Both the position numbers and the translations under genes were made by a program. Below the pieces are notes generated by a model that was given only the letters and a program-made list of their open reading frames with translations, made no database searches and was not told where the DNA came from. Below are positions 1 to 53,345 of a stretch of DNA of 64,000 nucleotides, piece by piece. Source of the stretch: Gracilimonas mengyeensis (GTDB taxonomy: Bacteria > Bacteroidota > Rhodothermia > Balneolales > Balneolaceae); assembly GCF_900182705.1 (NCBI RefSeq), contig NZ_FXTP01000017.1:1-64000 (forward strand), in the 5' to 3' direction. The first letter of the stretch is position 1. Each line of letters starts with the position of its first letter.

Positions 1-422
1 TGGGTATCCTGGAATACGGTTTGATCCGCGATCTCGTTGATGTCGCCAGCCAAAGCTGCGATCTGGTCGCCGATGTAAGCGCGCTCGTCATCACCAAGAG
101 TGTCGTTAGCAGCTTGCGTGGCCAGACCTTTCATTTCAACCAGGTTGTCCATTACCGTACTGAAGCTGGACTCAGCAATATCCAATACAGATTTGGCATC
201 TCCTACGTTACGCAGGGCTTGATCCAAACCTTCTACACGGCTGTTCAATTTAGTGGCGATAGAATATCCGGCAGCGTCATCTTCGGCCTTGTTGATACGA
301 AGACCTGTGGACATACGCAGCTGGTTGTCCGCCATACTTTTATTAATCTTGTTCAGTGAAAGCTGAGCATCCAGTGACTGGATGTTCGTATTCACTCTGT
401 TTAAATCACCAAAACTTGCCAT
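1..422 (-). CDS. flagellin, 5' part (truncated by window edge)
   Basis: First 140 codons of a flagellin, the filament subunit exported through the flagellar type III apparatus. It starts at the ATG complementary to 420-422 and stays open to base 1. The encoded N-terminal D0/D1 coiled-coil region is almost identical to the complete flagellin at 1090-2037: I see about three amino-acid differences (for example LGDDER against LGADER) and otherwise scattered synonymous changes. The first 60 or so bases and the leader immediately upstream are identical in the two genes, which points to recent tandem duplication or gene conversion. The rest of the gene, including the C-terminal coiled coil, lies outside the window. 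Confidence 0.93.
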   Translation of the reverse strand, partial: MASFGDLNRVNTNIQSLDAQLSLNKINKSMADNQLRMSTGLRINKAEDDAAGYSIATKLNSRVEGLDQALRNVGDAKSVLDIAESSFSTVMDNLVEMKGLATQAANDTLGDDERAYIGDQIAALAGDINEIADQTVFQDT

Positions 423-485
423 AATGATTCACCTTTGAGTTTGTTGTGGTTCGTTGCTTAATGCTTTTGCGTTTGGTTATTTAAG

Positions 486-514
486 TTATCGTACCCAAAA
501 AGACGGTCTTAAAT
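486..514 (-). promoter_or_regulatory. candidate flagellin promoter (sigma-28-like), first gene
   Basis: Reading the minus strand, TTTAAG is followed about 15 bases later by TACGATAA, resembling the sigma-28 (FliA) -10 GCCGATAA with a weak TAAA-type -35. The same arrangement is found upstream of the second flagellin (2102-2130) although bases between the two boxes differ there. It lies 64 bases upstream of the start codon. The match is partial, so the sigma factor is inference. Confidence 0.35.
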
Positions 515-585
515 TTTATTTTAGTTATTTGTTGAAATTATTTTCGATTGCAATCCGCCCCCCTAATCATCTGACGGCTTGTACT

Positions 586-755
586 CATCTGACGGCTAAC
601 TTTACGCCCCGTGCACCCAACCCTACAGAGAGCCGTCCGATGAATGTCTTCAGCCTCGATATTTTTTCGTAAGTGTTGATACTTTGGAAATCGTCGGACC
701 GCTGATACATTATTTTCTTCCAATAGCCTTTCCCGAATCGGTCAGACGAAAATTG
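586..755. repeat. 170-bp two-hairpin repeat, copy 1
   Basis: Copy 1 of a four-member family found only around the flagellin genes here. It opens with CATCTGACGGCT, matched about 30 bases later by AGCCGTCCGATGAAT (first imperfect inverted repeat). After a spacer containing TCGATATTTTT it has GTCGGACCGCTGATAC, matched by CGGTCAGACGAAAATTG (second inverted repeat). An extra copy of the first arm lies just outside at 568-580. The small open reading frames over it are repeats of the same frame and not genes. Confidence 0.85.
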
Positions 756-814
756 TAGAGTGAAGACAAGAACATTGAATATTGAATATTGAAAATTGCT
801 TTAAACCCCATATT

Positions 815-982
815 CATCTGACGGCTAACTTTACGCCCCGTACCTGCAATCCTGCAGAGAGCCGTCCGATGAATCTTTTCCGCTTCGATGTTTTTCGTAA
901 GAGTCGATACTGAGGAAATCGTCGGACCGCTGATACATTGTTTCTTCCAATACCCTTTCCCGAAGCGGTCAGACGAAAATTG
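815..982. repeat. 170-bp two-hairpin repeat, copy 2
   Basis: Same architecture as 586-755: CATCTGACGGCT with AGCCGTCCGATGAAT, then GTCGGACCGCTGATAC with AGCGGTCAGACGAAAATTG. This copy is separated from copy 1 by an AT-rich stretch with short direct repeats of ATTGAATATTGA (772-797). It sits between copy 1 and the flagellin terminator. Confidence 0.85.
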
Positions 983-1025
983 AGGCCTAATGATTATTCA
1001 CTCTTAATTACCTACATCCCCTAAA

Positions 1026-1061
1026 CAAAAAAATCCATGCCCTCCTTTCGGAAAGCATGGA
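1026..1061 (-). terminator. Rho-independent terminator of the complete flagellin gene
   Basis: On the minus strand, a 12-bp stem (TCCATGC paired with GCATGGA and extended by G-U and G-C pairs) closes a GAAA tetraloop and is followed by seven T. It lies about 30 bases after the flagellin stop codon. Confidence 0.9.
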
Positions 1062-1089
1062 CTGATTACGTTGGCTTTACTACTTCGGA

Positions 1090-2037
1090 TTAACCGAGGA
1101 AGCCAAGTACAGATTGTGGTCCCATGTTGGCCTGAGCCAGAGCAGAAGTAGAAGTCTGCTGCAGAATCTGCAGTCGTACAGACTCAGATTGCTCCTTGGC
1201 AAAGTCAGCATCCATGATGCGGCTGGCAGCAGAACTGTTGGCCGAGATGGATTGTGACAGGGTTACTTCACGGGTACTCAATGAAGACTGTGCCATACCG
1301 ATCTGGTTTACACGGTCGTTCATAGAACCGATGGCTGTGTCAATTGAGTCGATAAAGTCACGGTAGTCAGTAGCTGTTGCAGCTGTACCACCACCGGTTT
1401 CGAATGTCAGGGCTCCTTGCTGTCCACCAGAGGTAGAAACGGCAATGTTACCACTCGCTACATCAGTACCTACACTGCTGAACAGTGCGCTGATGTTTAC
1501 AGCGTCGATAGAAGCGTCAAGTGTATCAGAAGAACGCTCGCCAACCTGGAAGGTCAGGCTCAGGGTTCCGGAGAAAGCACTCGCGCCAGTGTTTGCAGGG
1601 TCACCGTTTAATAACTGGGTGTCCTGGAATACAGTTTGGTCAGCAATTTCGTTAACGTCGCTGGCCAAAGCAGCAATCTGGTCGCCAATATAAGCACGCT
1701 CGTCGGCACCAAGGGTGTCGTTAGCAGCTTGCGTGGCCAGACCTTTCATTTCAACCAGGTTGTCCATAACGGTACTGAAGCTGGACTCAGCAATATCCAA
1801 TACAGATTTTGCATCCCCTACGTTACGCAGGGCCTGATCCAAGCCTTCAACACGGCTGTTCAATTTAGTGGCGATAGAATATCCGGCAGCGTCGTCTTCG
1901 GCCTTATTGATACGAAGACCTGTGGACATACGCAGCTGGTTGTCCGCCATACTTTTATTAATCTTGTTCAGTGAAAGCTGAGCATCCAGTGACTGGATGT
2001 TCGTATTCACTCTGTTTAAATCACCAAAACTTGCCAT
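1090..2037 (-). CDS. flagellin (complete)
   Basis: A 315-residue flagellin, the structural subunit of the flagellar filament. The N-terminal D0/D1 helices (residues 1-140, with the conserved 'STGLRINKAEDDAAGYSIA' block) and the C-terminal helices (about 230-315, ending ANMGPQSVLGFLG) are well conserved. The variable middle is short, about 90 residues, so the outer D2/D3 domains are reduced. The start at 2037 is preceded on the minus strand by AAAGGTGAATCATT, a fair ribosome site. Its neighbour at 1-422 is a near-copy, giving a tandem pair with separate leaders and, for this gene, its own terminator, so each may be transcribed alone. No other flagellar genes are in the window. Confidence 0.97.
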   Translation of the reverse strand: MASFGDLNRVNTNIQSLDAQLSLNKINKSMADNQLRMSTGLRINKAEDDAAGYSIATKLNSRVEGLDQALRNVGDAKSVLDIAESSFSTVMDNLVEMKGLATQAANDTLGADERAYIGDQIAALASDVNEIADQTVFQDTQLLNGDPANTGASAFSGTLSLTFQVGERSSDTLDASIDAVNISALFSSVGTDVASGNIAVSTSGGQQGALTFETGGGTAATATDYRDFIDSIDTAIGSMNDRVNQIGMAQSSLSTREVTLSQSISANSSAASRIMDADFAKEQSESVRLQILQQTSTSALAQANMGPQSVLGFLG

Positions 2038-2101
2038 AATGATTCACCTTTGAGTTTGTTGTGGTTCGTTGCTTAATGCTTTTTGCGTTTGGTTACTGCA
2101 G

Positions 2102-2130
2102 TTATCGTACGCGAAAAGGCGGTCTTAAAT
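2102..2130 (-). promoter_or_regulatory. candidate flagellin promoter (sigma-28-like), second gene
   Basis: The minus strand carries TTTAAG then TACGATAA, 65 bases before the start codon, at the same distance and spacing as in the first flagellin gene (486-514). Conservation of the boxes while the bases between them differ supports a real promoter. The sigma-28 assignment is inference from a 6-of-8 match to GCCGATAA. Confidence 0.35.
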
Positions 2131-2201
2131 TTTATTTTAGTTATTTGTTGAAATTATTTTCGATTGCAATCCTACCCCATAATCATCTGACGGCTCGTAC
2201 T

Positions 2202-2372
2202 CATCTGACGGCTGGCTTTACGCCCCGTACCTTCAACCTTACAGAGAGCCGTCCGATGAATGTCTTCGGCCTCGATATTTTTTGGTAAGTGTTGATACTG
2301 AGGAAATCGTCGGACCGCTGAAACTTCTTTACCTCTCCAACTTTTTCCCATAGCGGTCGGATGAGGCTTGGG
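2202..2372. repeat. 170-bp two-hairpin repeat, copy 3
   Basis: Same order of elements as copy 1: CATCTGACGGCTGG with AGCCGTCCGATGAATG, then GTCGGACCGCTGA with AGCGGTCGGATGAGG. An additional first arm lies just upstream (2184-2194), as in copy 1, so copies 1 and 3 are the orthologous positions in the duplicated flagellin unit. Confidence 0.85.
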
Positions 2373-2546
2373 GTGCTCCATTGCATGCCAAACAACCCAA
2401 ACAGTATAGAAGTCTAAGACTTCTCTGGTTCATGGTATTTGCCATGTCTGCAAAACTCAGGGCTTCTGCTTTTCAGTTACAAACTGAAAAGATCATTGGG
2501 AAATATGTAACTGAAAGATGGAAGATTACAAATTTGCCCCGTACAT

Positions 2547-2717
2547 CATCCGACGGCTGGCTTTACGTCCCGTCACCTCAATCCTGCAAAGAGCCGTCTG
2601 ATGAATTTTGAAGGCCAGGTTCCTTAAGTGAGTTTTAGTGCTATCGAAATCGTCAGACCGCTGAGACTTCTTTCCCTCACCGGCTTTTTCCTGAAGCGGT
2701 CGGACGAGGGTTGGGGT
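2547..2717. repeat. 170-bp two-hairpin repeat, copy 4
   Basis: The most diverged copy: CATCCGACGGCTGG with AGCCGTCTGATGAAT, then GTCAGACCGCTGAG with AGCGGTCGGACGAGG. Changes in one arm are partly matched in the other (for example GTCAGACCGCT against AGCGGTCGGAC keeps most pairs), suggesting that the paired structure matters. Between this copy and the ArsR start (2718-2841) there is only AT-rich sequence. Confidence 0.8.
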
Positions 2718-2841
2718 TAATACCCTTTTCTTGTGATGACTCTTTCTCCTCTTTTTAAGACTAACATCTCTTACTGCAAAAAATAATTTTTTCTGATTAT
2801 TGACAGTGATGTTGATCTCTATTATTTTACCAATCAGTTAA

Positions 2842-2857
2842 TTAACTATTTAGTTAA
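2842..2857. promoter_or_regulatory. candidate ArsR operator
   Basis: A perfect inverted repeat, TTAACTA-TT-TAGTTAA, 14 bases before the ArsR start. Position and size fit an autoregulatory site of the ArsR/SmtB-type regulator that follows. A second ArsR gene at 46298 has two 16-bp palindromes of related sequence upstream. Confidence 0.5.
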
Positions 2858-2871
2858 ATAAATAATTATTC

Positions 2872-3216
2872 ATGCCAGCAGATCAACTCAGTACTACGTT
2901 TCAAGCTTTAGCCGACCCTACACGCCGTGCCATTCTCTCCAGTTTAACCACAGGAGAAAAAACGGTTTCCGATTTGGCTGAACCGTTTGATATGAGCATG
3001 CCGGCAATCACCAAGCATTTGAAAGTGCTGGAAAAAGCACAATTGATTGAACGGAGCCGGAAAGCTCAATACCGTCCCTGCCGGCTTCATCCCGAACCCC
3101 TGAAGGACATTGACGAATGGATGGAACAGTATCGCAAATTTTTTGAGGCAAGCTTTGACCGCCTGGATGATTATTTAAAACAAATACAAACTAAAGAGGA
3201 TAACAATGACGGATGA
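2872..3216 (+). CDS. ArsR-family transcriptional regulator
   Basis: A 114-residue winged-helix protein. The segment 'FQALADPTRRAILSSL' (residues 10-25) and the recognition helix 'MSMPAITKHLKVLEKA' (about 43-58) are typical of ArsR regulators that are paired with AHSA1/SRPBCC proteins. No clustered metal-binding cysteines are present, so it is probably not an arsenic or metal sensor; the ligand is unknown. It overlaps the next gene by 11 bases, so the two are translationally coupled, and it probably represses the 2872-6465 run through the palindrome at 2842-2857. Confidence 0.92.
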   Translation: MPADQLSTTFQALADPTRRAILSSLTTGEKTVSDLAEPFDMSMPAITKHLKVLEKAQLIERSRKAQYRPCRLHPEPLKDIDEWMEQYRKFFEASFDRLDDYLKQIQTKEDNNDG

Positions 3217-3700
3217 TAAGATGAAGGTAGAAACCGAAGGACGAAAACTGATTATGAAACGCATCTTTGAGGCTCCACCCCAGCTGATGTTCGAGGTATG
3301 GTCGAGTTGCGAACACTTGATGCACTGGTGGGGACCAAAGGAATGGCCTATAAATGAATGTGACATGGACTTTCGGGTAGGAGGAACCTGGCTCTATTGT
3401 ATGCGGGGCCCCAATGAAGGAGATGAAGCATGGGGAAAAGTGATTTATGAAGAAATCCACAAGCCCACAAAAATTATTTATCGGGACTATTTCTCGGATA
3501 GTGAAGGGAACATCAATGAAAATCTACCCGGTTCCAAAACCGTGCTGGAGTTTAAGGAACACAATGGAATGACCCGGCAGGTAAGCACTACGTGGTATGA
3601 ATCACCCGAAAGCCTCCAAAAAGTTCTGGATATGGGTATGATTGAAGGCACCGAAAGCCAAATGGAGCGCCTGGATGAATACTTACCAACCTTACAATAA
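3206..3700 (+). CDS. SRPBCC (AHSA1-like) domain protein
   Basis: A 164-residue protein of the START/SRPBCC fold (Aha1-C-like), a hydrophobic-cavity fold that binds small ligands. Family signs are 'MKRIFEAPPQLMFEVWSS' near residue 17, 'WWGPKEWPI' at 39-47 and 'FRVGGTWLYCMRGP' at about 55-68. Biochemical function is not known for this family branch. Its start codon lies inside the ArsR gene, so the regulator and this protein form a pair, a recurring arrangement in bacteria. Cytoplasmic; no signal peptide. Confidence 0.88.
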   Translation: MTDDKMKVETEGRKLIMKRIFEAPPQLMFEVWSSCEHLMHWWGPKEWPINECDMDFRVGGTWLYCMRGPNEGDEAWGKVIYEEIHKPTKIIYRDYFSDSEGNINENLPGSKTVLEFKEHNGMTRQVSTTWYESPESLQKVLDMGMIEGTESQMERLDEYLPTLQ

Positions 3701-3714
3701 TGGAATACAGCCCC

Positions 3715-3735
3715 GTCAGGTTTCAAAAACCTGAC
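3715..3735. repeat. short perfect inverted repeat between genes
   Basis: GTCAGGTTT and AAACCTGAC separated by CAA, 14 bases after the SRPBCC stop codon. It could fold at a transcript end, but no T-run follows on either strand, so it is better read as a REP-like palindrome than as a terminator. Confidence 0.6.
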
Positions 3736-3855
3736 AGGTGTGTTTAAGAAGTTGTCGTATTCACGCCTTCAGTTTTCCGGATTTACCGGACCCTGTATCC
3801 AAAATTTGTAACACATTTAAAACGTCCTTGCAAATTCAATTCAATAAATAATGCT

Positions 3856-4773
3856 ATGAGTACACAAAAAATCATCCCTCACCTTTGGTTTGATGATCAA
3901 GCTGAAGAAGCTGCCCATTTTTATATGTCCTTGTTTAACAAGCATTCGGTTGAGACAGACAAAACCTATTACAACGAAGCTGGCCAAGAAATCCATGGGA
4001 AAAAAGCAGGTTCCGTGATGACGGTAGACTTTGAACTTGATGGCTATAAAATGATTGCTCTAAATGGCGGCCCTCATTTTAAATTTACGCCTGCTATCTC
4101 TTTCTATGTTACCTGTTCCACAGAGAATGAAGTGGACGAACTTTGGAAGGCGTTATCTAATGGAGGAACTCCTTTAATGCCTCTGGACCAATATGAATGG
4201 AGTAAAAAATATGGCTGGATTAAGGATAAATTCGGTCTAAGCTGGCAAATTTCGTTGGGTAAACTGGATGATGTACACGGCCAAAAAATCATTCCTTGCC
4301 TCATGTATGTAAGTAAAGAAGGCGAGGCTGAAGAAGCCATTACGCTCTACACTTCCCTTTTCGATAATTCAGAAATCACCGGGATATTGCGATATGGTAA
4401 AGACGAAAATCAGCCTGAGGGCAGCGTGAAACACAGCCAGTTTCTACTTAATAAAGAAGAAGTTTTCATGGCCATGGACAGCTCGTCCGAACACGCTGAA
4501 TTTACTTTTAATGAAGCGATATCGCTACTGGTTCAATGCGAAGATCAGGATGAGATCAATCATTTTTGGGAGAAGCTTTCAGCTGCCCCCAAGGCTGAAC
4601 AATGTGGCTGGCTGAAAGACAAATTCGGCCTTTCCTGGCAGGTGGTTCCGAAGGGAATGAATGAAATGCTAAATGCTGATGATCCCCAAAAAACCAAACG
4701 GGCAATGAATGCCATGCTTCAAATGAAGAAACTTGACATACAAAAATTAAAGGACGCTTTCGAAGGTAATTAA
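3856..4773 (+). CDS. two-domain PhnB-like VOC family protein
   Basis: A 305-residue protein made of two copies of the PhnB/3-demethylubiquinone-methyltransferase-like VOC domain. The first begins at 'KIIPHLWFDDQAEEAAHFY' (about 5-23) and the second at 'KIIPCLMYVSKEGEAEEA' (about 144-161); both end in 'WLKDKFGLSWQ' or 'WIKDKFGLSWQI'. VOC proteins are metal-dependent dioxygenases, isomerases or resistance proteins; the substrate here is unknown. The start is the ATG at 3856. It lies 155 bases after the ArsR-SRPBCC pair on the same strand and may belong to the same stress-response group. Confidence 0.88.
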   Translation: MSTQKIIPHLWFDDQAEEAAHFYMSLFNKHSVETDKTYYNEAGQEIHGKKAGSVMTVDFELDGYKMIALNGGPHFKFTPAISFYVTCSTENEVDELWKALSNGGTPLMPLDQYEWSKKYGWIKDKFGLSWQISLGKLDDVHGQKIIPCLMYVSKEGEAEEAITLYTSLFDNSEITGILRYGKDENQPEGSVKHSQFLLNKEEVFMAMDSSSEHAEFTFNEAISLLVQCEDQDEINHFWEKLSAAPKAEQCGWLKDKFGLSWQVVPKGMNEMLNADDPQKTKRAMNAMLQMKKLDIQKLKDAFEGN

Positions 4774-4838
4774 CTTAGCGTTCTTCGTGCCCTTTGCGGT
4801 TGTATTTTGTTAACCGCTAAGGTGCAAAGAGTGCAAGA
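4774..4838. repeat. imperfect palindrome of the CGCAAAG/CTTTGCG class
   Basis: Arms TCTTCGTGCCCTTTGCGGTT and AACCGCTAAGGTGCAAAGAG face each other around TGTATTTTG. Similar palindromes occur at 23168-23232 and, with different arms, around the gene at 22153. No protein or terminator signal explains it. Confidence 0.65.
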
Positions 4839-4910
4839 CTAAACCACTCTGCCCTGAAAGTGCTGGGTTTTACCCCTGAGCTGGGATCAATAAAATAAAC
4901 AACTAAACCA

Positions 4911-5363
4911 ATGAAAGACCGAGCCATACATATTTCCAGAGAATTTGATGCGCCAAGAGCGCTGGTTTTTGAAGCCTTCAGCCAACACGAGCATATCGGC
5001 AAGTGGTGGGGCCCCGATGGCTTCTCAACATCCACCAAAAGCATGGCATTTGCCATAGGCGGTGAATGGATCTTTACCATGCACGGCCCGGATGGTACCG
5101 ACTACCCCAACCGCGTGGTTTATACTGAAATAGACAAACCAAAGCTGTTGAAATACGATCACTTTGCCAATTATGAGGATAATGGAGAACCTCCTCATTT
5201 CAAAACAACCATCACTTTTAAGGAAGCGAATGGAAAAACTACGATTGAAATTAATATGCTCTTCCCAACTGCTAAGAAACGAGAGCAAGCCGCAGAATTT
5301 GGTGCTGTGGAAGGAGGACATCAAACACTTACACGGTTGTCTGAATTTTTGACGAATCACTAA
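4911..5363 (+). CDS. SRPBCC (AHSA1-like) domain protein
   Basis: A 150-residue START-fold protein related to the one at 3206. It shows 'ISREFDAPRALVFEAFSQ' (7-24), 'KWWGPDGFSTSTK' (30-42) and 'AIGGEWIFTMHGPDGT' (46-61). The C-terminal helix 'GAVEGGHQTLTRLSEFL' is the usual ending. Function unknown beyond the ligand-binding fold. It is followed after 29 bases by a VOC gene, repeating the SRPBCC-VOC order of the two upstream genes, as if the pair had duplicated. Confidence 0.88.
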   Translation: MKDRAIHISREFDAPRALVFEAFSQHEHIGKWWGPDGFSTSTKSMAFAIGGEWIFTMHGPDGTDYPNRVVYTEIDKPKLLKYDHFANYEDNGEPPHFKTTITFKEANGKTTIEINMLFPTAKKREQAAEFGAVEGGHQTLTRLSEFLTNH

Positions 5364-5392
5364 TCAATTTGTAACAATTAACCAAAAAAACC

Positions 5393-5818
5393 ATGCCAAC
5401 TATCAATCCATATCTCAATTTCCAGGGAAACACAGAAGAAGCTTTCAACTTCTATAAATCCATTTTTGGCGGAGATTTTATTGGAGGAATCAGTCGCTTT
5501 AAAGATACCCCCGAAGCAGAAAAACTGTCCGGGAACGAATTAGATAAAATAATGCATATAGCCCTACCCTTTGGCGATGCGAATATGCTTATGGCTACCG
5601 ATGCCCTCGAATCCATGAATCAAAAGGTAAAACAGGGGAATAATATCTATTTATGCATTTCGGCCGACAGCAAGCAACAAGCCGATGACTTTTTTGCGGG
5701 TCTTGCCACTGGAGGAGATGTCGAGCTGGACATGCACGAAGCTTTTTGGGGTGATTACTTCGGGATGCTGAAAGACAAGTTTGGCATCAAATGGATGATT
5801 AGCTTTACTGATAGGTAA
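5393..5818 (+). CDS. PhnB-like VOC family protein
   Basis: A 141-residue single VOC domain. 'INPYLNFQGNTEEAFNFY' (4-21) and 'FKSIFGGDF'-like text are PhnB-family hallmarks, and 'MLKDKFGIKWMISF' closes the domain. Members of this branch are usually annotated as glyoxalase or bleomycin-resistance-like without known substrate. It is 29 bases downstream of the SRPBCC gene at 4911 and likely co-transcribed with it. Confidence 0.9.
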   Translation: MPTINPYLNFQGNTEEAFNFYKSIFGGDFIGGISRFKDTPEAEKLSGNELDKIMHIALPFGDANMLMATDALESMNQKVKQGNNIYLCISADSKQQADDFFAGLATGGDVELDMHEAFWGDYFGMLKDKFGIKWMISFTDR

Positions 5819-5907
5819 TAGATACACCATCAGCTTTAAAAGCTGGTTTTCGATGGCGTTACTAAGCCACACTTCTTAAACAAACTATCTCATAAACAGG
5901 ATATTCG

Positions 5908-6465
5908 ATGCCTAAAATTTCTGTGTACATTGCTACCAGCCTGGATGGTTTTATTGCCCGTAAAGATGGAGACATTGAATGGCTGCATACCAGCGGCCAA
6001 GGAAAGGTGGCTTCAGACGAAGACTTTGGCTATAAAGTATTCATGGAAAATATTGACGTTTTGCTGATGGGCCGAAATACTTTTGAAAAGGTTTTATCCT
6101 TTGGTGGAGAGTGGCCTTACGGGAAAAAGCCGGTGATAGTTCTCACCAGCCGTGCGATAGAAATTCCTAAGGAAATAAGTGAGACAGTTTCTTCTATGTC
6201 CGGTTCACCTGAAGAAATTGTATCCGCTTTGGATCAACAAGGATTTGAGGATTTATACCTGGATGGAGGATTCACCATTCAAAGGTTTTTAGAGGCTGGA
6301 TTGGTTAATGAGCTAACCGTCACGCGCATCCCTATCCTGATTGGAGAAGGCATTCCGCTTTTTGGTCCGCTAACCGAAGATATCCCCCTCAAACACCTGG
6401 AAACTCAATCCTGGAATAATGGTTTTGTGCAGAGCAGGTATAAGGTACTAAGTGGAGCATCATAA
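5908..6465 (+). CDS. RibD C-terminal domain (dihydrofolate-reductase-like) protein
   Basis: A 185-residue protein of the RibD-C/YwjB group, NADPH-dependent reductase-like fold. It starts 'ISVYIATSLDGFIARKDG' (4-21), has 'MGRNTFEKVLSFG' (about 52-64) and 'LYLDGGFTIQRFLEAGLV' (about 116-133), the expected order of strands and cofactor-binding loops. Lacks the deaminase half of RibD, so it is unlikely to act in riboflavin synthesis; the substrate is unknown. It is the last gene of the same-strand series starting at 2872 and converges with the beta-galactosidase gene. Confidence 0.88.
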   Translation: MPKISVYIATSLDGFIARKDGDIEWLHTSGQGKVASDEDFGYKVFMENIDVLLMGRNTFEKVLSFGGEWPYGKKPVIVLTSRAIEIPKEISETVSSMSGSPEEIVSALDQQGFEDLYLDGGFTIQRFLEAGLVNELTVTRIPILIGEGIPLFGPLTEDIPLKHLETQSWNNGFVQSRYKVLSGAS

Positions 6466-50762: not shown

Positions 50763-53345
50763 TTACTTAATCAACATCATCTTGCGGGTAAAGTGCTGCC
50801 CGGCCGCTGTTGACAAACGGTAAATGTACATCCCACTAGATAGGTTGGAGGCATCAAACTGTACTTCGTGACTCCCAGCAGCCATTCGCTCGCCGCTTAC
50901 CAGGGAAGCCACTTCACGACCAAGCATATCATATACTTTCAGGTTAACCGTGCTGTTCTGCGCCAGCTGGTAGCTTATAACGGTCGTTGGGTTGAAGGGG
51001 TTAGGATAGTTTTGATTCAGGGCAAAGTCAGTGGGCTGACCATCAACAATTGGTTCGTTGCTAACGGTTCCCTCGAAAGTAAAGCGGGTCCATATTGGGT
51101 AGTGATCCGAAGTGGAGCTCAGGTAACTGCCGATATAATTGGTGTTTTCCACCCGCTCGGTCCCTTCGAAATATTCATCCGACAGCTCGGAAGTAATGGT
51201 GATATGGTCGATTACAGAACCGCTGCTTTGAGATGAAAATCCGGCATCTTCCAAGCTCTGTGTGATGACCGTGTATTCGGTATCATCCACGAAGTTTTTG
51301 TAGGGAGAATCCTGCCCCGAGGTAATAGAGCCCGTTACATTATCATTATAATCACCCAGGAAAATCACATTGTCTTCGCCGTGGGCTTGATCCAAATACA
51401 ATTTGAGTTCACGTGATGCATTTTCTCTTTGGTTGTACGAATCGGAATCATCAAAAGCCTTGGCATGGATGTTAAAGGCGAATATATCTCTGGACTGACC
51501 GTCTATGGTTGCAGTGAAGTTGAACATCAACGGAAAACGGGCAAAGCTGCTGCTGTTGCCACCGGCCCAATAGTTGGAAGTCATGCCGTCAGAAATCACC
51601 CCGGAATCCAGTGAATCAATTTCACTGCGTTTGAATAAGTATGCTGTTTTTTGGTTTTGGGAGAAATCCGCAAGTACACCACCGTAAGCCTCGAGAGAAT
51701 CCACTAAATCTGCAAAAAGTGTGGGATTTGAAATTTCCTGGAAGGCGTAAACCTCAGCATCTATAGTTTCAACTACAGTCATTACATTTTCAAACTGCTC
51801 CTGATCATCTTCCGGGCCATTGCTGGCAGATCCAAACCATTCAATATTCCAGGTAACCACTTCAAAGGTTTCATCCCTGGAGATGTCTTCACCGGGATAA
51901 GTCGTTTCTTCGGCATCTACATCATCCGTATCCCGGGGAAGAAGTTGGTAAGTACCACGGAATTGTCCCACAACTCCTACAACGGTGGTTTCACCTTGCG
52001 GTGCTTCTGCTCCCACTAAATTGGTAAAGTTGTCGATACGGAGTTCTCCGGTTCCTGTGTTATCAGAAATATCGTAATTGGTATTGCCCTGGAACGCTCC
52101 GCTGTGATCAATATCCACGTTCATTGAAACCAGCTGGCTTTCAAAATCACCAGAATTCATCTGTTGAACGGTGATAGCTACGGGCTCCACCGTTTTGTTG
52201 CCTTCGGGATAATTAGAATAGGAAGTAGCATCTACAATCTGTAGTAAATCATTAAAAAAGCCGATCTCACCGGTTACTACTACAGAATCCCCACGTTCTA
52301 TATCTAAAGTAAATTCCTCTCGCATTCTGGCAAAATCAAACCATGCGATGCCACCACTTTCATCCTGAAAATAAACCGGTCCCGCAAATTCGTCTGTTAC
52401 GGTTACATGTCCGCTAACGGTTACCTGTGTTCCTTCGGATAGCTCTCTGGCTTCTGCAATTGAGATAGCCGTACCCGTTTCAATTCCTTCACCCAGCACA
52501 TCCAGCGTGAATGCACTTTCGTTTGTGGCATTGCTGTTTATTTGCAGCTGTCCCTGGAATGCGCCTTCGCTGTCAGGACTAAAGGTCAGTACGGTTTCCG
52601 CCGACTCGTTAAAGCCAAGGGTGATGCCTTCAAGGTCGTCAGAAAGACTGAAGCCGTTCCCCTGAATCGTCGCTTCCGATACTACCAGCGGTTCATTGCC
52701 AAGATTTGTTACTTCTATCGTCTTCGTTTTGCTGGACGATATGGTTGTTTGAGAAAAAGTTAGGCTACCACCTGAGCTTATTTCACTGCCGTCAACGTCT
52801 ACGGCCAGGGTTGGTTCTTCAGCGGGAGCTATATAATCTGAAATCTGTACATCATCCAGGTTCATGCGATCATCACCAGAAGCATGCACAAATTTAAAGC
52901 GGATGTTACCTTCTACATCTACCGGCAAACTTACTTCCCGGAGATTCTCAGTAGCTTCAACAGCCTCTCCCAGGTCCTGCCAATTGCTTCCCTGATCGGT
53001 GGAATATTGAACTTGCAGGGTATTGCCAGAGCTGCTTCCGTAATTGGCCAGGTAAAAAGAAATCTCACTGGCACCGTTGGGATAATCGAACTCCATATAA
53101 ATATTGGCTGCAATTCCATCCCGGCGATCAAGACGTACGCCTTGGGTACCATTGTAATTATCATTATCTAAATTCCCCAGAAGTGCTTCTTCCATAAACC
53201 AATCACCTGAAGCAAGGGTAACGGAACCGGCGGCATAACTACCTTTACTTCCATCTTCAAAATCTTCAAATAACTGGGCCTGGGCCGGTATAGCGGTAAT
53301 GAATAAGGCAAAAAGGGCGATAAAGGTGGTAACTGCTTTTCTCAT
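50763..53345 (-). CDS. secreted endonuclease/exonuclease/phosphatase family protein with type-9-like sorting domain
   Basis: An 860-residue exported protein; signal peptide 'FIALFALFITAIPAQAQ' (about 7-24). Then a carbohydrate-binding-like jelly roll (about 30-175), a choice-of-anchor/Ig-like repeat (about 185-285), an OB-fold-like region (about 290-480) and an endonuclease/exonuclease/phosphatase domain (about 500-760) with 'VVTWNIEWFG', 'YAFQEI', 'FAFNIHAKA', 'IFLGDYNDN' and 'TSDHYPIWTRF' in catalytic order. The end has 'NYPNPFNPTTVISYQL' and 'LSSGMYIYRLSTA', a type-9-like sorting module. Likely an extracellular nuclease. The first-Met reading from 53381 adds 12 residues before the signal peptide and is not preferred. 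Confidence 0.9.
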   Translation of the reverse strand: MRKAVTTFIALFALFITAIPAQAQLFEDFEDGSKGSYAAGSVTLASGDWFMEEALLGNLDNDNYNGTQGVRLDRRDGIAANIYMEFDYPNGASEISFYLANYGSSSGNTLQVQYSTDQGSNWQDLGEAVEATENLREVSLPVDVEGNIRFKFVHASGDDRMNLDDVQISDYIAPAEEPTLAVDVDGSEISSGGSLTFSQTTISSSKTKTIEVTNLGNEPLVVSEATIQGNGFSLSDDLEGITLGFNESAETVLTFSPDSEGAFQGQLQINSNATNESAFTLDVLGEGIETGTAISIAEARELSEGTQVTVSGHVTVTDEFAGPVYFQDESGGIAWFDFARMREEFTLDIERGDSVVVTGEIGFFNDLLQIVDATSYSNYPEGNKTVEPVAITVQQMNSGDFESQLVSMNVDIDHSGAFQGNTNYDISDNTGTGELRIDNFTNLVGAEAPQGETTVVGVVGQFRGTYQLLPRDTDDVDAEETTYPGEDISRDETFEVVTWNIEWFGSASNGPEDDQEQFENVMTVVETIDAEVYAFQEISNPTLFADLVDSLEAYGGVLADFSQNQKTAYLFKRSEIDSLDSGVISDGMTSNYWAGGNSSSFARFPLMFNFTATIDGQSRDIFAFNIHAKAFDDSDSYNQRENASRELKLYLDQAHGEDNVIFLGDYNDNVTGSITSGQDSPYKNFVDDTEYTVITQSLEDAGFSSQSSGSVIDHITITSELSDEYFEGTERVENTNYIGSYLSSTSDHYPIWTRFTFEGTVSNEPIVDGQPTDFALNQNYPNPFNPTTVISYQLAQNSTVNLKVYDMLGREVASLVSGERMAAGSHEVQFDASNLSSGMYIYRLSTAAGQHFTRKMMLIK

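Follow-up and report, generated by a model that had tools for sequence, protein, structure and literature searches.

The window analysed here is a 64,000-nucleotide stretch of Gracilimonas mengyeensis DNA, at the start of which two flagellin genes lie on the minus strand together with four copies of a repeat of about 170 bp (Table 1). The copies occupy 586-755, 815-982, 2202-2372 and 2547-2717, as the earlier note had reported, and each carries two hairpins whose order and spacing are constant among copies. With at most one mismatch, the hairpin-1 arm CATCNGACGGCT has 12 matches in the window against 0.64 expected, 11 of them inside 568-2603 (one being a hairpin-2 arm) and the last a stray match at 51176; the hairpin-2 arm CGTCNGACCGCT has 8 matches against 0.30 expected, all inside 692-2706. 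Hairpin 2 of copy 3 is missing from our strict palindrome scan because its right arm reads GTCGGATG. Two features are additions to the earlier description: (i) solitary left half arms of hairpin 1 that adjoin copies 1 and 3 and (ii) three further copies (C19a, C19b, and C19c) in the flagellin cluster with which contig C19 ends. Pairwise identity among these seven flagellin-cluster copies is 70-88%, and contigs C17 and C19 both end within a flagellin gene. An Rfam search of positions 1-3200 returned nothing at E ≤ 1.

Table 1. Genes, signals and repeat hairpins at the start of the window.
Feature	Position	Strand	Remarks
Flagellin gene, N-terminal part	1..422	-	Truncated by contig end
Promoter-like motif of the truncated flagellin gene	485..512	-	TTAAG-N16-CGATAAC
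Solitary left arm of hairpin 1	568..579	+	Adjoins copy 1
Copy 1, hairpin 1	586..642	+	5 + 7 paired bases around a T.C mismatch; 33-nt loop
Copy 1, hairpin 2	692..748	+	Purine-purine mismatch on the + strand, so orientation opposite to hairpin 1
Copy 2, hairpin 1	815..871	+	
Copy 2, hairpin 2	920..975	+	
Intrinsic-terminator-like hairpin after the complete flagellin gene	1032..1063	-	14 pairs
Flagellin gene, complete	1090..2037	-	315 aa; Flagellin_N PF00669
Promoter-like motif of the complete flagellin gene	2101..2128	-	TTAAG-N16-CGATAAC; copy 3 upstream of motif
Solitary left arm of hairpin 1	2184..2195	+	Adjoins copy 3
Copy 3, hairpin 1	2202..2258	+	
Copy 3, hairpin 2	2308..2363	+	Copy-1-like to copy-4-like switch within
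Copy 4, hairpin 1	2547..2603	+	C.T mismatch
Copy 4, hairpin 2	2651..2706	+	

Copies 1 and 2 have the terminator-like hairpin of one flagellin gene on one side and, on the other, the promoter-like motif that belongs to the next flagellin gene. To judge from the order of these signals, with the repeat copies in the window past the terminator of a flagellin gene and on the upstream side of a promoter-like motif, the copies are probably outside flagellin mRNA. The terminator scan of positions 1-3200 found three sites against 2.9 expected by chance; no repeat copy is among its terminator-like sites, in agreement with the view that the repeats are not terminators.

Beyond the window, a model of hairpin 1 matches the G. 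mengyeensis genome in at least 35 places, 7 of them near flagellins. This count is a lower bound, with 150 of 953 candidates scored, and derives from 45 matches of which 10 are the opposite strand of listed hairpins. The repeats are intergenic: among 28 own copies examined (28 of the 35 places), 26 overlap no open reading frame of at least 90 aa, and the other two overlap frames of 117 and 123 aa. Their architectures are single, double, compact, or long, and a full copy on contig C12 as well as many single hairpins are all far from flagellins. The pattern for the compact second hairpin occurs at 7 sites in this genome and is present in 7 of 10 genus genomes, and its reversed control is present in none of the 10. 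Related genomes carry the family as well: all nine same-genus relatives searched have matches at E ≤ 0.1, and at E ≤ 1e-4 the model has matches in 19 of the phylum's 296 genomes, of which all but one (G. mengyeensis included among the 18) belong to the same family. A single match in genome G023, from the same order (E 0.03), was taken as chance. A strict pattern run across genome contigs gave three stretches: one Gracilimonas MAG has two of them, and the third is a 38-nt Rhizobium match taken as unrelated. No orthologous empty site was obtained for the C12 copy, as synteny is not conserved and the left and right genes are apart in relatives; at this site, the sole one compared, relatives have no hairpin beside the matching genes, and the model has just two matches there, both weak (E 0.05 and 0.06) and both in one of the 11 loci.

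This distribution bears on the proposal that the repeats are confined to flagellin upstream regions, which does not hold, as 28 of the 35 places have no flagellin within 5 kb. A flagellin-specific RNA element, whose transcribed hairpins would stabilise or process flagellin mRNA, could call on the seven copies (four in the window, three on C19) that lie in flagellin spacers or adjoin a flagellin gene and on copy 3, which folds well as RNA (-58.7 kcal/mol, z -4.5) with the arms of hairpin 1 paired to those of hairpin 2. Yet most places are away from flagellins, and conservation next to other flagellin genes was not found in five flagellated relatives, where none of 28 places is within 5 kb of a flagellin. 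Moreover, four same-genus genomes in which no flagellin was found still hold 10, 5, 36, and 3 matches (one of the four, G009, is only 83% complete), and the terminator-like hairpin and the promoter-like motif stand between the copies and the flagellin transcript. With repeats dispersed genus-wide, the transcript-stabiliser role suggested by the earlier note is highly unlikely. The repeats are better described as short mobile palindromes that a transposase has apparently dispersed in G. mengyeensis and related bacteria.

Within the flagellin cluster, duplication has left clear marks. Copies 1 and 3 have a common left flank (92%) and copies 2, C19a, and C19c a common right flank (65-72%), owing to flagellin-plus-spacer duplications. 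The excess of copies near flagellins is likely to be due largely to flagellin spacer duplication. Taken to its limit, this would make the repeats plain flanking DNA, copied with the flagellin genes and with no element of their own. The shared flanks fit such block duplication, but copy 4 and C19b keep the element (70-79% identical to the others) despite flanks at random level on both sides, and the full C12 copy and the many single hairpins far from flagellins refute it as the whole explanation, leaving pure block duplication scarcely credible. Copy 3 is a mosaic that matches copy 1 up to a point within hairpin 2 and copy 4 thereafter, and the hairpins may have served as recombination points behind flagellin duplication.

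The two hairpins of a unit are inverted relative to each other. On one and the same strand, hairpin 1 has a pyrimidine-pyrimidine (Y.Y) and hairpin 2 a purine-purine (R.R) centre in each of the genome's 8 full copies, and R.R on one strand is Y.Y on the other. Among 68 distinct aligned hairpins from this genome and relatives, the central position is never Watson-Crick paired and is Y.Y in 61; in G. mengyeensis alone it is Y.Y in 27 of 28 hairpin-1 copies. Around this retained mismatch, 95.6% of the stem cells in the aligned hairpins are paired, and 63 cells are changed on both sides against 17.8 in shuffles, a value reached by none of 500 shuffles. Further pair types as a measure of covariation show no excess (11 against 11.5). 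The compensatory changes lie among distant copies: 4 of 12 stem pairs (23 cells) have changed on both sides when all 28 distinct own hairpin-1 copies are compared, and none of 12 has done so in nine aligned hairpin-1 copies or in seven aligned hairpin-2 copies. Covariation had earlier been read from copy 4, where the swapped letters are in fact the central unpaired pyrimidine-pyrimidine position and not a stem pair; selection on structure is thus supported by the distant own-genome copies and the relatives and not by copy 4. With DNA energy parameters, the fold of copy 3 is only slightly more stable than those of shuffles (z -2.1 and -1.3), and RNAalifold on eight copies prefers two separate hairpins. 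As for a conserved 5′ tag, the 28 own copies show a weak CCC[CG] signal upstream and no GTAG/GTGG at the foot; the 5′ flank is weakly conserved, with CCGTAC (at most one change) in 10 of 28 against a background of 4.8%.

In relatives, hairpins of this kind flank genes for RAYT transposases, namely at L147, L160/L183, L189/L163, L182, and the same-genus locus L185. The L189/L163 gene is surrounded by hairpin arrays, one of three two-hairpin units and, across the gene, one of two. Of 92 loci with a Y1-transposase match, 8 were positive in a strict palindrome scan, which gave no hit in shuffles of the same loci; of the 8, L160 and L183 are one gene, and L196 was dropped since its long arm is unrelated. 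L142, a candidate from the model search, was also set aside, its hairpin being more than 1 kb from the gene. The L185 genome also has dispersed two-hairpin elements, and it is with their second hairpin that the hairpins flanking the RAYT gene align: each of 9 comparisons scores above all 60 shuffles, and the best has 68/93 identical positions and a score of 37.5 against a shuffled maximum of 11.0. Matches of the L185 flanking hairpin to hairpin 2 of the window are short throughout; it exceeds all shuffles in 3/3 comparisons each for copies 3 and 4, 2/3 for copy 2, and 0/3 for copy 1.

The RAYT protein matches Pfam Y1_Tnp at 27 bits (cut-off 23) and NCBIfam NF047646, the REP-associated tyrosine transposase, at 61.3 bits (E 9e-17), below the cut-off of 80. 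The clade has NH[YF]H in 15 of 16 rows (the sixteenth is partial) and YIH[QH]NP in 16 of 16, which on the basis of the accessible table of PMC6006769 correspond to the HUH and catalytic-tyrosine motifs, respectively. Flanked RAYTs fall on one side of a branch with 99/96 support, and the four own-genome RAYTs fall on the other; all but 6 of the clade's 16 RAYTs were scored as flanked, in some cases from weak matches (about 22 bits for L184 and L186). In the G. mengyeensis assembly itself (97.5% complete), no RAYT adjoining these hairpins was found. The best relative there is 39% identical, belongs to another clade, and has a different palindrome. The own-genome Y1 transposases (five found by Pfam and one by query P0001) were rejected as mobilisers, as other palindromes surround them by eye; the hairpin model found no member of this family at the five Pfam-found loci or at L201. 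Because no cognate RAYT was found in the assembly, the own copies look orphaned, possibly as remnants of an earlier cognate RAYT.

Two other accounts can be weighed against this linkage. The 170-bp unit might be a MITE that shares its terminal inverted repeats with a non-Y1 transposon, DDE-type or other, and is mobilised by it: the two outermost arms repeat one another in inverted form (CATCYGACGGCT / CRTCYGACCGCT), and one single copy adjoins an IS-like reading frame by eye. Each half is a complete hairpin that also occurs alone, though, and the hairpins flank RAYT genes (in a transposase search that covered Y1 only), so that a MITE is very improbable. Alternatively, the palindromes might serve a host function, as protein-binding or bidirectional regulatory sites kept by selection and only incidentally beside RAYT genes. 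Stems maintained by compensatory change would suit such a role, and REPs/BIMEs elsewhere, as described in the accessible text of PMC2817692, bind several proteins and have suggested roles in termination and in the organisation of the chromosome. Hairpin arrays on both sides of a RAYT gene, a palindrome type shared within one RAYT clade, the variety of architectures, and relatives that have no hairpin beside matching genes at the sole site compared all make this account improbable.

The reading we favour, with a probability of roughly 0.88, is that the repeats form a REP/BIME family of REPIN-like character, i.e., non-autonomous palindromes mobilised by a RAYT (TnpA_REP, Y1) transposase. The 170-bp element would be a REPIN-type bacterial interspersed mosaic element, non-autonomous mobile DNA made of two imperfect palindromes in inverted orientation. 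When single-stranded, as during replication, it would form a hairpin with an unpaired pyrimidine-pyrimidine mismatch, and hairpin and mismatch would be recognised by the RAYT, a Y1/HUH single-strand transposase related to those of IS200/IS605. By cutting and joining beside the hairpin, the RAYT would act in trans to scatter hairpins, singly, in pairs, or as arrays, through intergenic DNA. The flagellin cluster would have received a few insertions that were copied along with flagellin genes and spacers and then underwent exchange between copies. More tentatively, the Balneolaceae may possess a distinct RAYT-REP system that reads the Y.Y mismatch and a pyrimidine-rich foot instead of GTAG, has long loops, and through palindrome recombination helped multiply the flagellin genes of one species.

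The REP-RAYT type as such is known, and its tag-less, long-loop, mismatch-keeping version looks new; a literature search found no REP paper for the Balneolaceae group among the papers listed. The family offers a RAYT-REP pair with no GTAG tag and with clear linkage of hairpin and transposase, which makes the recognition of tag-less, "atypical" REPs testable, with the kept mismatch as an explicit prediction. It also sets right an easy mistake, that of taking dispersed repeats for regulators of flagellin.

As far as the accessible text of the relevant papers goes, the repeats resemble the REP/BIME-RAYT systems of E. coli and Pseudomonas in being short dispersed intergenic palindromes that occur as opposite-orientation pairs, in flanking a Y1 transposase gene (here in relatives), sometimes as arrays, and in keeping an unpaired stem mismatch like E. 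coli REPs (PMC2817692, PMC8266576, PMC3733652), in which the unpaired bulge is needed for activity (PMC8266576). In contrast to classical REPs, they have no GTAG/GTGG tag, their main form has longer loops (about 33 nt), the cognate RAYT was not found in their own genome, and they occupy at least 35 places, as against usually more than 100 per genome (PMC2817692, PMC8266576, PMC3733652). Like REPINs, they comprise two inverted REPs separated by a spacer, and copy 3 as RNA can form one long hairpin; unlike in REPINs as there described, each REP is a hairpin by itself with a long loop (PMC3116915), and eight copies folded jointly favour the two separate hairpins. CGTC-tagged REPs are also short palindromes reported from Bacteroidetes, and hairpin 2 happens to start with CGTC. 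They are described, in the accessible text, with an unpaired CGTC tag, stems of 8-9 bp, loops of 4-5 bp, and no linked transposase, and membership was rejected because here CGTC is paired in the hairpin-2 stem, the loop is 32-33 nt, and RAYTs are linked (PMC3733652). TnpA_REP subclass 2.6, mostly from Bacteroidetes, is noted for "atypical secondary structures" (PMC6006769). The present clade differs from its tabulated motifs, compared by eye, in having NH[YF]H against NH[LIV]H and, for 10 of 16 rows, GSLFR, which appears to replace the table's WQ. It shares with subclass 2.6, within the accessible part of PMC6006769, proteins of about 180-215 aa (179 in the table), the YIH[QN]NP motif, and flanking palindromes that have no GT[AG]G and recur elsewhere in the genome.

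The repeats of the window are a REP/BIME family of a clade of RAYTs (TnpA_REP, Y1 transposases); the family is real, while the flagellin context ascribed to it was mistaken. The four two-hairpin copies with constant hairpin order are present as the earlier note described, and their arm motifs occur in the window far above chance (12 matches versus 0.64 expected and 8 versus 0.30). Hairpin 1 comprises 5 + 7 stem pairs separated by one unpaired position, with a 33-nt loop, and hairpin 2 is built alike, its loop being 32–33 nt; an additional half arm precedes copies 1 and 3. The central mismatch of hairpin 2 is purine-purine (R.R) in all eight full copies of the own genome, and thus the two hairpins are oppositely oriented.

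Coordinates of the repeat copies and neighboring or related features
Feature	Location	Remarks
Copy 1	window 586-755	hairpin 1, then hairpin 2
Copy 2	window 815-982	hairpin 1, then hairpin 2
Copy 3	window 2202-2372	hairpin 1, then hairpin 2
Copy 4	window 2547-2717	hairpin 1, then hairpin 2
Contig break	window 1-422; C19 end (L031 19096-19516)	both contigs break at the identical point within a flagellin gene
Terminator-like hairpin	window 1032-1063	closes a flagellin gene
Run of short genes	window 2872-6465 (+)	resemble an ArsR-type regulator, then SRPBCC- and VOC-like proteins (by eye)
Tandem compact units	L036 9737-9982 (window's contig, C17, ~92.8-93.0 kb)	two two-hairpin units, short loops, one-base bulge (by eye)
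RAYT gene amid the G112 arrays	L163 6344-6951	frame-broken; palindromes well preserved

The covariation claimed for copy 4 is absent, as the copies first aligned, nine of hairpin 1 and seven of hairpin 2, contain no stem pair with both partners changed. Compensatory changes are borne out by more distant copies. In a set of 28 distinct own hairpins, from which four opposite-strand rows were left out, both-side changes occur at 4/12 pairs in 23 cells; for example, A-T replaces G-C at one inner pair in three copies. Across 68 distinct hairpins from the own genome, genus, and family, in an alignment fitted to the structure whose cells are non-independent and some of whose rows read one hairpin from the opposite strand, 95.6% of stem cells are paired (88.0 in shuffles), both-side changes affect 6/12 pairs (3.7 in shuffles, reached by 5/500), and 63 cells are changed on both sides (17.8 in shuffles, 0/500 as high). 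Further pair types show no excess in this set (11 versus 11.5). The stem centre is Watson-Crick in none of the 68, with 61 pyrimidine-pyrimidine (Y.Y), five R.R, one A.C, and one T.G; in the own genome alone, 27/28 are Y.Y and one is T.G. As RNA, copy 3 folds into a single long hairpin uniting both units (z -4.5), and the DNA fold effect is weak (z -2.1, -1.3). For eight copies, RNAalifold favours two hairpins together with a linker hairpin; the five both-side-changed pairs of that fold are confined to the linker, which also contains several broken pairs.

The earlier note confined the family to flagellin upstream regions, a view that fails because copies are dispersed in the own genome and genus-wide in relatives. 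Searching the own genome at the DNA level recovers three further complete copies (C19a–c) in the flagellin cluster at the C19 contig end, as well as a two-hairpin copy on contig C12 and isolated hairpins in other places. The covariance model R1, built from 15 own copies of hairpin 1, gives at least 45 matches at E<=1, or at least 35 places with both palindrome strands merged, a lower bound with 150/953 candidates scored. Seven of the 35 places lie <5 kb from a flagellin, all actually <1 kb, with a chance expectation well under one. All nine genus relatives have R1 matches at E<=0.1. Flagellin_N is present in 6/10 genus genomes, and the four in which it was not found still carry repeat matches (G002, 10; G006, 5; G008, 36; and G009, 3, its assembly being only 83% complete). 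In the five flagellated relatives, 0/28 places found lie within 5 kb of a same-contig flagellin, the closest at 26 kb. Across the phylum, searched with stricter filters than the genus, 19/296 genomes match at E<=1e-4, and 18, including the own, belong to the same family. A compact second-hairpin pattern occurs at seven own-genome sites and in 7/10 genus genomes; the reversed pattern, run as a control, occurs in none. The tandem compact units on C17 are possibly another form of the same repeat family. GATT-rich heptad-like tracts (>=3 units in 70 nt; background 0.4%) precede 5/28 own copies (L055, L057, L060, L061, and L072) and could reflect an insertion preference or a linked repeat.

Block duplication of flagellin plus flanks would explain some copies. 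Element identity among the seven flagellin-cluster copies is 70–88%, and most flanks are no more alike than random pairs (mean 0.476 and maximum 0.54 for 60 such pairs). Flank sharing is seen to the left of copies 1 and 3 (0.92) and to the right of copies 2, C19a, and C19c (0.65–0.72), and a few other values reach 0.55; some copies were thus duplicated along with flagellin and spacer. Such a duplication does not account for copy 4 and C19b, which retain the element with unshared flanks. Copy 3 resembles copy 1 as far as the left arm of hairpin 2 (54/58); past that arm it is closer to copy 4 (43/53) than to copy 1 (32/54), a switch that exchange within the repeat would be expected to produce. 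From their common breakpoint, the assembly of C17 and C19 there is probably collapsed, and the flagellin genes of the cluster may exceed the six seen.

A role in stabilizing the flagellin transcript is unlikely from the positions of the copies. All six flagellins examined, of seven own Flagellin_N matches, carry TTAAG-N16-CGATAAC, a putative sigma-28-type promoter, whose end is 53–73 nt upstream of the gene start. Copies 1 and 2 are on the far side of the flagellin terminator, copy 3 begins 73 nt past the promoter-like motif (55 nt for its half arm), and copy 4 is farther out.

The link to RAYTs comes from relatives. Of the 62 loci retrieved through Y1 matches, R1 hit three: L147 and L160, where hairpins stand at both sides of a RAYT-like gene, and L142, where the hairpin is >1 kb away. 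In the related genome G112, a RAYT-like gene is bordered by three two-hairpin units at one end and by two at the other end. The protein from L147, used as query (P0001), has relatives in 28/57 family genomes at E<=1e-10, including one in the own genome (39%), and R1 matched eight of 30 loci so found, some weakly (L182, L183, L184, L186, L189, L192, L193, and L194). L185, from the same genus, has hairpin-2-type palindromes at its flanks. All nine alignments of these to the second hairpins of elements dispersed in the same genome score 15.0–37.5, each above all 60 shuffles; matches to the window's hairpin 2 are short (best score 16.5) and exceed all shuffles in 3/3 comparisons for copies 3 and 4, 2/3 for copy 2, and 0/3 for copy 1. 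A strict palindrome scan matched 8/92 loci (L147, L160, L182, L183, L185, L189, L194, and L196, with L160 and L183 being one gene) and none of their shuffles; the L196 match was judged unrelated. In a 47-row tree, a branch (99/96) separates 10 rows called flanked by the palindrome scan or R1 (L196 not so labelled, 33 unlabelled rows uncounted) from four own-genome rows; 6/16 rows of the flanked clade are not called flanked. The protein is Y1_Tnp by Pfam, scores under the cut-off of the NCBIfam RAYT model, and matches TnpA_REP 4er8 in the PDB weakly (E 0.035).

The surroundings of the five own-genome Y1 transposases (Pfam) differ by eye from these hairpins, and the family is probably orphaned in its own genome. 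Four own RAYT-like genes (L045, L046, L047, and L201) each lie amid different palindromes by eye, so this genome seems to hold several REP families; the L047 palindrome, GTAGGACGGACAGATTTGTCCGTCC, resembles the classical GTAG-type REP.

No paper on REPs from Balneolota turned up in the literature search, and as far as seen both the sequence and the form of the family are new. PMC2817692, PMC3116915, PMC6006769, PMC8266576, and PMC3733652 describe REPs, BIMEs, REPINs, and RAYTs. The closest kind described there is TnpA_REP subclass 2.6, mostly from Bacteroidetes, with atypical flanking structures without GT[AG]G (PMC6006769). According to PMC8266576, an unpaired bulge is required for E. coli REP activity, whereas for two other kinds of REP with perfectly paired stems, introducing a mismatch impaired cutting. 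The mismatch kept in the window's family agrees with the E. coli REP kind.
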